Notes under the pieces: generated by a model | Told to the model about the DNA's origin: nothing | The model's input: the letters and a program-made list of their open reading frames with translations, nothing else | Databases searched by the model: none | Assembly (NCBI GenBank): GCA_030524175.1 | Contig: JAUNHC010000020.1 | Location: forward strand, 1 to 64,000 | From: Eubacteriales bacterium | GTDB taxonomy: Bacteria; Bacillota; Clostridia; Lachnospirales; Lachnospiraceae | Direction of reading: 5' to 3' | Length of the DNA stretch: 64,000 bases | Program-made: the position numbers and the translations under genes | Shown: positions 48,244-54,160 of the stretch, piece after piece | Layout of the letters: each line of letters begins with the position of its first letter | Numbering within the stretch: position 1 is the first letter of the stretch

Positions 48244-51200
48244 TTATTTCACAATCACTTTCTTCTGATTAGACCATGGACTAAACACCTTCTTTTGGTC
48301 CTCACTGCTCCTGTTCCAGGCATGAACTCCGGCAAAATAAGTTCCTTTTTCCACATTCTTAAATGTGACAGTCACCTTGTCCCGGCCCTTTTCTTTTATT
48401 ACATACGGAGAATAATCAACAGGACGCATTTCCCCATTTACCTTCTTCCTCTCCCTGCCAAGTATAACGTCATATCCTGAAGCATTTTTGCAGCGGGTAA
48501 AGGTAACCTGTACTGTATTCCCCTTCCGTGACACGCTGACAATCCTGGGAGTATCAGGGGTCTCGGCTGTTACATTGAAAAGATAAGGTTCTGACCAGAT
48601 ACTGAATTTCTTCTTTCCGTTTTCATCTCTTATCCATGAATGGCAGTATGCATAGTAAGTACCTTTCTGTACATAGTAGAAATCTGTCTTTGTCAAAAGG
48701 ATGTTTTTCTTTACCTGTAGATAATCTTTATCTACAATGCAATTTATATTTTCACTGATAACGAAATCATAGCCCTGAGCCCCTGCACTTTCCCCTTCAA
48801 GGATAGCTGCCGCTTTGTTGCCCGTTACATTTACTGTCTTGATCACCGGAGCGGCCGGACGTATAACAGTTCCATCCTTTCCGATAATACTTCCGTCAGC
48901 ACCGTGTATTGTACCATCGGGCTGTACCGTTGTGCCATCAGGATAAGTGACTGTCCCATCGGGCTGTACCACGGAACCTGCAGGCGGCTGTACTTTATTG
49001 CCGTCCGGCTGTACTACTGTATTTCCTTCTGCAGTAGTTACAGTTCCCGTTTCCGGATCATACTTGGGCCGTTCCCCGTTATCTCCTTTGTTTATCTCAG
49101 TGTGCCCCTGGTCAGGGTCTGTATTAGGCAAAGTGACATTTCCTTCACTGTCTATCACTGTTCCATTTACATCCGTAACATTCTCCTGCTTGTCAATAGA
49201 TGGTTTCTTTCCGTCCTCGCCAGGTGAAAGAACAGTTTCATCCGGGAGAATAATTGTTCCGTCCGGCTTTATGACCGTTCCGTTGGGGGTCTGTATACTT
49301 CCGTCCGGAAGTAAAATGGAACCTGGAGGCATATTGTCTAATGGGGACGGTACAGGGACATAAATAACAAGACCTTTATAATCCTCTTCCAAAAGCTTCA
49401 CATAATCATCTACTAATGACTGCTGTTTTAGGGGCAGTTTTCGATAAGCATCCAATAATCTAAACCGCTCTTGCAGAGATTTTTTTGACTGGTTATCTAT
49501 ATATTTATCAAGCGATCCTATTTTAATCAGCACAGCATCTAATTCTGTAAAGTCGGCCGGATATACAGTGATGCTATGATCGATATCCATGTCCTCATTG
49601 ACGGTAACTGTCAAAGTCCATGTATCCTTTGAACCGGAGTCCAACGTTATCTCTTCTATAGGGTCAGTTGTCCCTTTTTTTAATGCTGTAAGGCTGCTTA
49701 TCTCGCCGTAATTAATCCAGTTATTTTTTAAAGCAGCAGTTACTATAATTTCGCTTCCGCTTTTATAGTAGTCAAGTTTTCCTTGAGTAGTCTTGTCCCC
49801 TCCGGTCACCTTGACTGTATACTCCGCGCCCTCCGGTGCTGTAGTTACCTGATGATAAGTCCCGTCTTTCAAGAATATTTTTAATGTAATATCATATGGG
49901 GGAGCATCTGTATCAATGGTCAGTATTGTTTTCCCGTTTTCCTCTGAATACGTAAAATCACCTGCCCAAAACGGTAAATTAGCCTCCCAGCCACCAGCAG
50001 AATAGTAGTACCGCACTTCCTCAATCAGCCTTCCCAATGGAAGTTCGATTTTAATTTTTAATTTGCCGCCTTCAACCATTGTTTGAGGAATTTCAAGGAT
50101 TTTTACTCCGTCAGGAAGCTCGCTGTCATCAGGCGGTGTGATCGTATGTAATATCGGTTCAGGTACTACCACGGTTGCATCCGGACTTGGGTTCCAGGTA
50201 TCCGTTTCTGCAAGTCTTACCTTATAAGTGCCTGCAGTTAATCCTGCGATTTCTTTGTCCCCCTTACTCGTCTTCTGATAGTCCTGTTCCCCGTCTTTTT
50301 TATATTCATATATTTTGCTTGTATCTAACCCTGTGATTTTACCGTCATTGCCGCCCATAGCTGTGGGAAATTCTCCTTTAAGTCCCTGAGGTGCTCCCGG
50401 ATTAAATTTCGGCCTTGTTATTGTGACACTGTAATAACTGGTTTTACTTTCGTCTTTCGATGTGACAGTAAAAGGAAAAGTATTGGTTCCATATGGAATA
50501 TCAAATGTACATTTACCGGTATATGACTTTCCTTCATAACTGATTACTGCCTGGGTATTGACGGTACGGACAGTAAATACCTTTAAATTCGTACCCACAT
50601 CTCCGCTTATAGTATAAACATCATTATCAGCACCCGTGCCGTTCCATGATCCGGGCCATCCGTCAATAAGTGCATCCGTATTGTCGTCAGCGGCAGACGC
50701 CTTCTTTGTCAACTCTAATGTATCCGTAGGTACATAGCTGTTGTTGGATGTAACTATTGCATCCTGCATCTCATAAAATGGATTATCCAAAAGCACAACT
50801 TTATAGTCTTTTATTTCATTGCCCACGTAATTGAAATCAATTTTGTATACATTATAACCTAGAGCAAAACTGCTGACAGCCGTTGTTTTTTGAACCCAGG
50901 CTCCTGGATCATTGCTGTCCTTTTCATACAACACAAAGCTCAGTCCGCTGAGATCTGCCTGATCGTCATACTGACCTGGCTGTCCCTCAAGGGGCAGTCT
51001 AAGTCTCAATACCACGTACTGTGCCGCAGACAGCAGCGCACCCTCTTCGGCTTCCTCTACTCCACCCCCGGCATTCCTACTTCTCCCATCTGTAAAGTCT
51101 CCTGCTTCCTGTACTTGTTCAGACAGTGGCTCTTGTGCACTAAACTCTGCCTGTTGGTTCAAATTCTCCTCCGGCATTTGTACTTCTGTCTCAGAACTGC

Positions 51201-51303: not shown

Positions 51304-51387
51304 TTTTACACCCTTCCTTTCTCTTTTTTACAGGGATGTCTAAAACCATCCCTTGAACATTGGCTGTATATGTTCAGCCATATATGC

Positions 51388-51419
51388 AAAAACAGAAAGC
51401 CAAATTGACTTTCTGTTTT
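51388..51419 (-). terminator. Terminator of the two-component operon
   Basis: AAAACAGAAAG pairs with CTTTCTGTTTT (11 bp); on the reverse strand TTTTTGC follows. It lies between the response regulator stop and the secreted protein start, so the latter has its own promoter or depends on read-through. Smaller hairpins (51334-51353, 51361-51380) follow. Confidence 0.8.
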
Positions 51420-51494
51420 ACGGGGGCTTATCCCCTGCCTACAGTATACTGTAAAAAAGAGAGAAAATGGGAAAGATTGCAGATTTGTAACCTT

Positions 51495-52181
51495 TTATTC
51501 TTCCTTGCCGAAACAATATCCGCTTCCCCAGCCGGAAGTGATTGTATATTCACTGCCTTCCAGTTTTCTGCGCAAACGTGACACAGTGGTGCGTACTGCT
51601 CTGGCATCTCCGTGCATGGGCAGTTTCCATACTGCTTCATATAAAGATTTCGGGGATATCCCCTGTCCTTCGTGCTGTATCAGATACAGAAGGGCAGTGT
51701 ACTCCCTGGGATTCAGCAGCATGTCCTGCCCCTTAAGATACGCTCTGTATGCCACCAGATCCAGTTCTATCGGCCCGCATACCAGCCTGGAAGGCACCTT
51801 CATATGTCTTCTGGCCAGAAGAGCTACAATACGTGCCTGGAGCTCTTCAATGCGGTAAGGCTTTGTCATATAATCATCGGCACCTCCAGTGAGACCTTTG
51901 ACCATATCCTCATAGTCCCGTCTGCTGGTAAGCATGAGTACGGAGGCGGCACAGATCTGTCTTAATTCAGGGATAAATTCCAGTCCATTCCCATCAGGCA
52001 GCAAAATATCCAGTACCGCAATATCCACTGCAGGATGCTCTTCCAATATCTTCCTTGTGTCTTCTAAAGTTCCGGCAGTGAGTACATGGAAATTCTTACG
52101 CTTTAAAACTGCTTCATTTAGTTTCAGGACATGTTCGTTATCCTCAACCAGCAGGATCACAGGGCTTTTATTTTCACTCAT
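51495..52181 (-). CDS. OmpR/PhoB-type response regulator
   Basis: Regulator of 228 residues: receiver (about 7-120; LVEDN, phospho-acceptor Asp in DIAVLDILLPDGNG near 56, Lys in YMTKPYR) and winged-helix output (about 130-225; PKSLYEAVWKLPMHGDARAVRTTVSRLRRKLEG). Its start overlaps the end of the split kinase gene by 8 bases, so they are one operon. If the kinase is out of frame, this regulator may lack its signal. The secreted repeat protein 190 bases downstream is a possible target. Confidence 0.9.
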   Translation of the reverse strand: MSENKSPVILLVEDNEHVLKLNEAVLKRKNFHVLTAGTLEDTRKILEEHPAVDIAVLDILLPDGNGLEFIPELRQICAASVLMLTSRRDYEDMVKGLTGGADDYMTKPYRIEELQARIVALLARRHMKVPSRLVCGPIELDLVAYRAYLKGQDMLLNPREYTALLYLIQHEGQGISPKSLYEAVWKLPMHGDARAVRTTVSRLRRKLEGSEYTITSGWGSGYCFGKEE

Positions 52182-54160
52182 AACTACCTTCCTCTCCTAT
52201 GGGTATTGTAAACCGGACTACAGTGCCTTTTCCCACAACGCTGTCAGCATTTATATTTCCGCCGTGGGCCTCTATGATCCGGGCAGTGATATACAAGCCA
52301 AGACCATTACCTCCGGCATCCCGGTTCTTAGGATAACGTTTAAACAGATGGGACAGAAGTTCCGGCTGGATTCCGTCACCTGTGTCTTCTACAGTGACTG
52401 TTATCTCCTTACCTTCCGCCTGAACTCTTAAGGTGATCGTGCCGTCATGGGTATGCTTTGATGAATTTGACAACAGATTGATCATTACCTGCAAAAGTCT
52501 CTCTTTGTCCCCGTATATGACAGGCAGGTCAGCACCCTGCAACACCCTAATGGTGTTATTTCCTCTGTCCATAATGGGAAAATGGACTCTGGAAACAGTA
52601 TCCAGCAGTTCTGTCATATCAAGCCATTCCTTTTTCAGGCTAAAGCTGCCGCTCTCTATGGCAGCTTCATCCAGAAGCTGTGTCACCAGCCGTTCCATCC
52701 GTCCTGCCTCACTGTCTACCCGTCTCATATTATCCTTCACAGCCTCCCGGTCCACTGCAGCATCGTCCATCATATCCCCTGTAAGCTGGGCAAAACCTGT
52801 TACTACAGTTATAGGTATCTGCAGTTCATGAGAAAGATTATGTAAAAATTCCTCCTTTAGTTTGTTTGCCCTGCGAAGAGCCTCTGCCTCAAACCGCCTG
52901 TCCTGTTCTGACTGCCGTGCTAAAGCCACCTCCCGCATAGTGCCGTAAAAGGAAGCAGTCATCTGGAACAGAATGAATACCAGTGCAGCAAAATCCATCA
53001 TACTGTCATAGATTACCGGAAAAATCCTGATATCCCCATGATAGAACATTTCCCTGAGAGCAAGATACACAAAAAGTACAAGACCGCATAGTACAATGAC
53101 ATGCTGGACATCCATACCTGCCGTTGTCTGTGTGAAAAAGCACTTAAACACATATAGTGCGCACAACAGCACCATTACGTACACAGCAGGCAGTATCTGA
53201 GTCATTAAAACAGTGGGTATAAAAGAAAATAGAAGTACCGCCGCGGCATTCACTGATACGATAAAATATTTTGCCCCCCCCCCTGAAAATCCCTTCAAAC
53301 ATGGCATCCAGTGCCAGGATGATCAGAAGGCTTGCCAGGGGAATTGCAATATATTCCAGGCGGAAGGTGAGATACCAGGAGATTTCCGGGAACAGTGCAG
53401 TGATGACCTTCGGCCCTGTCACGCCTGTCCGCACCAGCCATACAAGACAAAATAATGCAAAGTACAGATTTGTCCGATAGCTTCTTAACTGCAGAAACAG
53501 TACAAGATGAATGATAAACAGAATCAGGCAGCCCCCCATGATCGCCGCAACAGTCAAGGTCTGCCGGGAGCATAAACGGCTGATACTCTCCACGGACCCG
53601 ATATCCAGTCCTACAGGATTACCGCCTTTTTTATGCACAAAGTTAGAAACCTGATGTACCACCTCAATCACTCCATTATCAGGAACAACTGTATAATATA
53701 CGGTTGTAGTCAAGGGGACTGTCTCTTTGGAATTTGTACCGGGCCGGCCCACATCCTGCATATGCTGACCATTGATATAAATAGTGTCGGCATAATCCAC
53801 ACTGGAAAAAGTGATCCCATATACACGCCCATCGGGCACAAGTATGCGGAAACGCGCCGTATAATACTGTGTTTCTTCTGCCTTTTCCGTCTTTACCACC
53901 TGAGCCTTGGGATTATTGTCAAATTCCTCCGGGGTTAAAAGAGCTTGTGGTACATATTCAACTTTATCCCCCTTCAGCCGGACATAATGCTTCTGCATTT
54001 CCACGCTTCTCAAATCCCATACCGGATCATCTGAATGTAATGTGATCATAGCAGAAGTGTCAGCCTTAAGCTGCCACACAAAAAAGCATAGCACAAAGAT
54101 ACAAGGAAGAAGCAGCGATAAACTCCACCATTCTTTATTTGTTATTTTCATCTTCTTCAT
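52174..54160 (-). pseudogene. 7TM (7TMR-DISM-type) histidine kinase, split by a G10 tract
   Basis: Two adjoining frames form one protein. The first (53144-54160) has a membrane helix, an extracellular beta-sandwich (about 50-200, ARFRILVPDGRVYGITFSSVDYADTIYINGQ) and helices 1-3 of a 7TM module. The second (52174-53307) has helices 4-7, HisKA (EEFLHNLSHELQIPITVVTGFAQL) and an intact ATPase domain. The frame changes at ten G (53274-53283) between helices 3 and 4. Nine or twelve G would give one continuous protein of about 660 residues. Because everything else is intact I read this as a phase-variable or sequencing-affected gene rather than a decayed one. It is followed by its response regulator. 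Confidence 0.8.
53274..53283 (-). repeat. G10 homopolymer tract inside the kinase gene
   Basis: Ten C on the plus strand (G on the coding strand). The upstream frame reads AGG GGG GGG GGC AAA; the kinase frame needs AGG GGG GGG GCA AAA, that is one G fewer (or two more). This is the longest homopolymer noticed inside a gene in the window and a classic site for slipped-strand mispairing. Confidence 0.9.

Follow-up and report, generated by a model that had tools for sequence, protein, structure and literature searches.

A G10 tract at the frame junction of a 7TMR-DISM sensor kinase gene: a probable contingency locus in a Lachnospiraceae genome rich in long G-tracts

In this work, we focus on a run of ten consecutive G residues that splits the gene of a membrane-bound sensor histidine kinase, found in a window of 64,000 nucleotides (the whole stretch of DNA that was analysed) from a draft Lachnospiraceae genome of 5.95 Mb in 119 contigs. 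We regard this tract as quite probably a contingency locus, with the sensor kinase caught in its OFF state in the assembly, and slippage at the tract would be expected to produce a mixture of ON and OFF cells within one culture. The original prediction that the kinase is phase-variable gains from a genome-wide excess of runs of 9 to 11 G, from the placement of such runs at frame junctions, from selection acting beyond a comparable break and from orthologues that are unbroken. At the kinase site itself, the comparison of the G run in relatives that had been proposed as a check revealed no length variant of the tract, which is absent from all eight sensor homologues that were inspected.

The tract reads as ten C on the forward strand, that is, as ten G on the coding strand, and it is the only C/G run longer than six in the window, where runs of 5 and 6 occur 50 and 4 times, respectively, and runs of 7 to 9 do not occur. 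Base composition alone would give about 0.05 G/C runs of at least ten per 64 kb (a hand calculation), and the window's own run spectrum makes the G10 rarer still than this estimate; the homopolymer thus stands far above its background. The first frame of the kinase gene extends over 292 codons from the ATG at 54160 to the tract and remains open for 46 codons past the tract's edge, up to a stop at 53144-53146. The second frame, whose mechanical open reading frame begins at the ATG at 53307, is open down to the stop at 52174 (Table 1). No other stop or frame change is present in the 1,987 bp of the gene, which is thus intact apart from the change of frame that falls exactly at the tract.

The two halves carry the complementary parts of a 7TMR-DISM sensor histidine kinase, namely the 7TMR-DISM_7TM domain and the kinase domains. 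The N-half matches 7TMR-DISM_7TM in Pfam (PF07695, E 9.9e-8, profile positions 2-82), and the HisKA and HATPase_c matches of the C-half score well over their cut-offs. The rest of the 7TM profile is unmatched in the C-half alone, and the full domain is present in the orthologues L028 and L109. The region of about 170 residues that precedes the helices has no Pfam match and none to a named extracellular DISM domain (E 0.01). In a hydropathy scan, the part upstream of the tract shows helices at residues 13-31, 204-222 and 270-288, and the part downstream shows four; helix 2 of the 7TM domain stays below the threshold. The original prediction had described a G10 between helices 3 and 4 of an otherwise intact 7TM histidine kinase, whose halves would be joined by nine or twelve G. 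It is borne out by the sequence, which is open on both sides with no other break, by the frame arithmetic at the tract and by the hydropathy profile, with three helices before the tract and four after.

Table 1. Features of the kinase locus in the window and tract-bearing genes elsewhere in the own genome and in relatives
Feature	Position	Strand	Description and basis
G10 homopolymer	53274..53283	-	kinase frame junction, loop after 7TM helix 3; sequence, frames
Kinase N-half	53285..54160	-	signal anchor, extracytoplasmic region of ~170 residues, first three 7TMR-DISM_7TM helices
Kinase C-half	52174..53272	-	other frame; remaining four helices, HisKA (PF00512), HATPase_c (PF02518)
Response regulator	51495..52181	-	Response_reg and Trans_reg_C; Pfam
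Terminator-like hairpin with U-tail	51386..51421	-	between regulator and secreted-protein gene; folding
Secreted protein, 1019 residues	48244..51303	-	signal-peptide-like start, PDGT-type repeats; candidate regulatory target
L017			signal-peptide-like start, tract after 98 codons, then BspA-type LRR protein
L018, L019			signal-peptide-like start; 35 and 57 codons up to the tract; frames of 1,180 and >1,300 codons beyond it
L022 (G000 C71)			signal-peptide-like start, tract ~28 codons in, then frame of ~2,950 codons
L024			acyltransferase before tract; 134 codons after, no Pfam match
L074 (relative)			split acyltransferase, halves match successive parts of one Pfam profile
L065 (G010)			split regulator; post-tract piece from Response_reg position 43, ends in LytTR
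L085 (G015)			GHKL ATPase after tract; no Pfam match upstream of it

Unbroken orthologues of the kinase are found in other genera of the family, with N-half identities of 41% (L028), 44% (L029) and 41% (L030), and further ones are L109 (61%) and L106 (42%). Homology to L028-L030 crosses from the window's first frame into the second, and both halves align to L109 and L106. The longest G-run in the gene is of 4 to 7 in eight sensor homologues, which are these five kinases together with L104, L105 and L107, and the sole run of 7, in L109, lies near the gene start. Since unbroken homologues span the junction without a G-run, both halves belong to one gene, and its break sits at a slippery tract that was added in the loop. 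The window kinase resembles other 7TMR-DISM histidine kinases paired with OmpR-type regulators, in that 7TMR-DISM_7TM, HisKA and HATPase_c stand next to a Response_reg/Trans_reg_C gene, but it differs from the inspected homologues by its long G tract. No close orthologue was found in the 63 other genus genomes, three of which have matches at 30%, so that no second species supports the kinase site. One scan of genome contigs returned 12 loci, all from other organisms, and a search of viral contigs for the two kinase flanks, allowing a gap of variable length between them, found none.

The homologues L104 (19-1650), L105 (7947-9605) and L107 (3305-4972) combine the same type of sensor with Trans_reg_C and have no kinase match; they are apparent membrane-bound one-component regulators, judging from their domains, and these joins indicate that modules are exchanged in this family. 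The two halves of the window kinase differ in their conservation, the identity to L109 being 42.5% for the C-half vs 62.5% for the N-half. This gap is larger than in any of the ten orthologue pairs that do not include the window, in which the difference of C minus N lies between -12 and +9 points. With the remaining four orthologues, the window kinase has a gap of 2 to 7 points. The regulator, which is unbroken, is 45.8% identical to the regulator of L109. The lower conservation of the C-half relative to L109 may reflect a relaxed constraint on this half or an exchange of modules or domains.

The kinase had also been said to share an operon with a response regulator and to lie beside a 1019-residue secreted protein. 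The start of the regulator overlaps the stop of the kinase by 8 bases (52181/52174), in keeping with the operon, and the secreted protein is indeed adjacent, but it stands behind a terminator-like hairpin. The region of this hairpin folds with -24.6 kcal/mol over 66 nt (z -3.5), and the hairpin is missing from the list given by a simple terminator scan. Since a strong hairpin with a U-tail separates the two genes, the secreted protein is probably made from a transcript separate from that of the regulator, and it is likely a target of the kinase and regulator and not a member of their operon. The whole protein has weak Pfam matches and no NCBIfam match. Its C-terminal domain of 218 residues (48244-48900) has 21 matches in about 18 frames of the own genome and 29 matches in G015, and it is present in 20 of the 64 genus genomes. 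As regards the gene order, a large secreted protein directly follows the regulator in L057 and L109 and lies further downstream in L106, and in L104 and L105, the gene next to the fusion regulator on its downstream side encodes a protein whose start resembles a signal peptide. In L056, a small protein of this kind comes after the kinase, no large one is found near L058, and L107 is partly masked there. The sequence context thus suggests that the kinase may control the adjacent secreted protein, and the conserved gene order, together with the tracts found in other secreted proteins, suggests that switching would alter the cell surface.

The window tract is one of a whole set. In the own genome, G-runs of exactly 7, 8, 9, 10 and 11 number 23, 5, 6, 6 and 3, so that the 15 runs of 9 to 11 form a second mode in the spectrum. 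Runs of 5 and 6 number 137 and 15 in 204 kb of the genome, a background made up of the window, the surroundings of the tracts and 31 kb, and thus not a random sample. Between lengths 5 and 8, each added base lowers the number of runs by a factor of about 5 to 19, and with runs of 5 and 6 scaled up from these 204 kb and runs of 7 and 8 counted, about one run of at least 9 is predicted vs the 15 that are observed. The 64 genus genomes, including the own, hold 246 runs of at least 9 vs 127 of exactly 8, some of the 246 lying at contig ends, where they may be artefacts. This excess is unevenly distributed, with 32 vs 1 in G015, 12 vs 0 in G038 and no long run in 13 of the 64. Over 120 genomes of the family, again including the own, the excess is weak (366 vs 328) and is concentrated in the 13 genomes that carry at least 5 runs of at least 9 and more than twice as many of them as of exact 8s. 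Five genomes of other genera (G123, G092, G170, G139 and G147) have 15 to 33 such runs each, at least twice their exact 8s, and the tract repertoire extends beyond one genus. A literature search that covered a minority of the subscription journals turned up no account of phase variation through G-tracts in the group to which the window presumably belongs.

We then consider where these tracts lie. A tract was counted as split when it was entered by an open reading frame of at least 25 codons with a start codon and left in a different frame that stayed open for at least 100 codons. By this rule, 6 of the 15 tracts of the own genome are split and none is in frame, vs 3 split and 76 in frame among 153 control runs of 5 to 8 G (Fisher, 1.3e-5) and 112 split among 4000 random sites (2.3e-6); A/T runs of at least 7 gave 2 of 80. 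The other 9 of the 15 show no coding split. Of the 43 tracts examined in five further genus genomes, 11 are split and 5 are in frame, with 4 of 176 controls split (4e-6). In four other genera, the split tracts amount to 9 of 43 vs 6 of 227 shorter runs (7e-5) and 220 of 4000 random sites (5e-4), but there the in-frame tracts (12 of 43) outnumber the split ones, which counts against the switch reading. All six coding tracts of the own genome are broken, which would have a chance of about 0.09 if one frame in three were ON (hand calculation); this is compatible with switching, and it also fits inactive genes or a sizing bias.

Several features of these counts have to be kept in mind. All 15 own tracts were used, and the relatives were hand-picked and not drawn at random. 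Within the genus, they comprise 10 of 10 tracts from G010, 5 of 5 from G014 and 2 of 2 from G009, all three assembled in few contigs, 23 of 32 from G015, the richest genome, and the 3 longest of 7 from G003, the single-contig G017 with its 5 tracts being left out; in the other genera, they comprise 22 of 31 from G170, 12 of 15 from G139, 8 of 8 from G075 and 1 of 3 from G148, and tracts near contig ends were mostly left out. A first version of the test had given 5 of 15 own tracts vs 4 of 153 runs of 5 to 7 G (p 3e-4) and 10 of 43 vs 4 of 176 in relatives (2e-5); the second version reads from the tract's end, the first having missed L024, in which a stop codon lies across the tract's edge. The rule errs in both directions, and the control runs were judged alike. 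L090 and L103, both counted as split, look like tandem genes (two glycosyltransferase and two FdtA genes, respectively), since both pieces match the same domain. L079 was counted as split with an identity, GerA, for its post-tract piece only, and L089 was counted as split too; the second tract of L098 was counted as in frame, while the pieces on its two sides look like a single acyltransferase that changes frame. Pfam searches were run separately on the sequence upstream and downstream of the tracts, and signal peptides were judged by eye.

The six split genes of the own genome are the kinase, four genes with signal-peptide-like starts (L017, L018, L019 and L022) and the acyltransferase L024. 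L017 adjoins a paralogous 7TM kinase and regulator, and L018 and L019 share, in their post-tract frames, the C-terminal domain of the secreted protein that the window encodes. The long frame of L022 contains Malectin and F5/8 matches and a partial match to the lacto-N-biosidase LnbX (105.6 bits, with a cut-off of 2500). L023 and L024 (G000 C79) bear tracts 8.7 kb apart, the one beside a cytidylyltransferase and the other in the acyltransferase, in what are possibly surface-glycan genes. Two other own tracts occupy the place expected of a ribosome-binding site: a G11 at L015:3991-4001 precedes the ATG of a MerR-like gene by six bases, and a G10 at L027:4036-4045 lies at the same distance ahead of a TTG that may be the start codon of a regulator. 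In relatives, split genes include an acyltransferase, a LytTR regulator and a GHKL ATPase (Table 1). In L096 (G015 C8), a G9 lies at a frame junction and the piece after it matches part of a D12-type DNA adenine methylase, which makes this gene a candidate epigenetic switch. L182, split at a tract in another genus, is presumably flagellin-like, judging from its N-terminus.

The strongest argument that such tracts switch comes from L022 and L097, and not from the kinase. L022 (own genome, G11) and L097 (G015 C9, G10) are orthologues whose tracts occupy one and the same position behind nearly identical signal peptides, and in both, the signal-peptide frame ends shortly past the tract. Beyond the tract, 1,335 codons compare with 85% amino-acid identity, a dN of 0.089, a dS of 1.17 and a dN/dS of 0.076, which is a simple Nei-Gojobori estimate with dS near saturation. 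Such a value would hardly be maintained in a gene that had lost its signal peptide for good, so that L022 and L097 are hardly dead genes, and we propose them as a candidate phase-variable glycan-degrading enzyme.

The mechanism would be slipped-strand mispairing at replication, through which the run gains or loses G. In ON cells, a single frame would encode the whole protein, with its 7TM sensor and its HisKA and ATPase domains, while in OFF cells, the product would be limited to the anchor, the sensor region and three helices, since translation would stop no more than 46 codons past the tract. The partner regulator of OFF cells would then lack phosphorylation by its kinase, and the premature stop may also reduce the expression of the regulator through polarity. 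OFF cells would thus keep the regulator at best, and the adjacent secreted protein, and perhaps other targets, would change their expression.

The broken frame has other possible origins, and the assembly itself is one of them. The genome is a draft of 119 contigs, the length of G-tracts is difficult to determine, and each of the six coding tracts appears in its OFF state; moreover, one B. breve tract had, in culture, its annotated length in a minority of 37% (PMC9187656). The true tract could then be in frame in practically all cells while still being prone to slip. We consider such an error unlikely, since a missizing by one base does not create a tract of 9 to 11 G, so that the tract set and its placement remain, and since relatives assembled in one or two contigs (G014 and G010) also have genes split at tracts (L064, L065, L074 and L075).

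A break that is real need not be reversible. The kinase might be a pseudogene that was inactivated once and is decaying, with the tract as a relic, and the lower conservation of its C-half vs L109 and the lack of a close orthologue, with or without a tract, in the 63 other genus genomes would be in line with this. Against such a fate, which we hold to be quite improbable, stand the 1,987 bp without a second stop or frame change, the HisKA and HATPase_c scores well above the cut-offs, and the strong purifying selection on the comparable broken gene L022/L097. It is also conceivable that the tract is fixed out of frame and that transcriptional slippage or ribosomal frameshifting ensures a constant low expression, with no heritable switch: homopolymers of at least eight are a frequent site of programmed transcriptional realignment (PMC3711429), and every coding tract of the own genome is out of frame. 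We give this possibility a very slight probability, as the tract length differs between species at a conserved site (G11 in L022 and G10 in L097) and as 5 of 43 tracts in genus relatives are in frame, as slippage at the DNA level would give. The contingency locus thus remains the reading that we favor.

The kind of switch proposed here is already known, and the novelty, within the literature covered, lies in the host group and in how broad the tract set is. In gut commensals, phase variation has mostly been studied as DNA inversion; for G-tracts, we found the work on Bifidobacterium pili (PMC9187656). BvgS is a hybrid kinase with a periplasmic domain. In bvgS of Bordetella pertussis, a one-base change in a C6/C7 homopolymer truncates the kinase and shifts the phase of the cell through its regulon, as described in PMC1891110. 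The window locus is like bvgS in having a homopolymer inside a sensor-kinase gene. It is unlike it in that the tract is a G10 in the loop behind helix 3 of a 7TMR-DISM kinase, and in that the genome carries 15 runs of 9 to 11 in all. The BvgS order of domains was not found in the window kinase, whose Pfam domains are 7TM, HisKA and HATPase only; by analogy, it may work like bvgS without being a BvgS-type member.

Bifidobacterium breve, an Actinobacterium and gut commensal, offers another parallel. In its sortase-pilus genes, a G10/G11 run parts a signal-peptide ORF from a surface protein, the annotated frame is broken and slippage was measured, one G10 pilus tract being present as about 93.4% G10 and 6.5% G9 in one culture (PMC9187656). 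This layout is that of L017, L018, L019 and L022 in the own genome; unlike the B. breve pilin genes, the window tract lies in a regulator. The poly-G contingency loci of Campylobacter, such as cgtB, concern surface-glycan and other surface genes (PMC6437147 and the review PMC8355987). The own genome likewise has several G-tracts in surface genes, but it belongs to another bacterial group, and secreted repeat proteins and regulators are among its tract genes.

Finally, we consider, tentatively, what such a repertoire might serve. It is possible, though we would not yet put it above an even chance, that the tracts provide a bet-hedging at two levels, in which slippage strikes either an individual surface protein or a sensor that governs an entire programme, and that this is a general trait of the family. 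In the large family of secreted repeat proteins that share the C-terminal domain with its 21 matches, L018 and L019 are cut behind their signal peptides by their own tracts, and L017 is cut in a frame that precedes this type of domain; the member encoded in the window carries no tract, and it is its neighbouring sensor kinase that would switch. A clone would in this way randomise both its surface display and its sensing capacity, and in relatives, slippage would reach regulators as well as DNA adenine methylase-like, flagellin-like and lacto-N-biosidase-like secreted genes. If this is true, the annotation of single genomes misreads a number of surface genes as broken, and clonal populations would be functionally mixed, with a repertoire that spans sensors, regulators, secreted proteins, sugar-modifying enzymes and a methylase-like gene.
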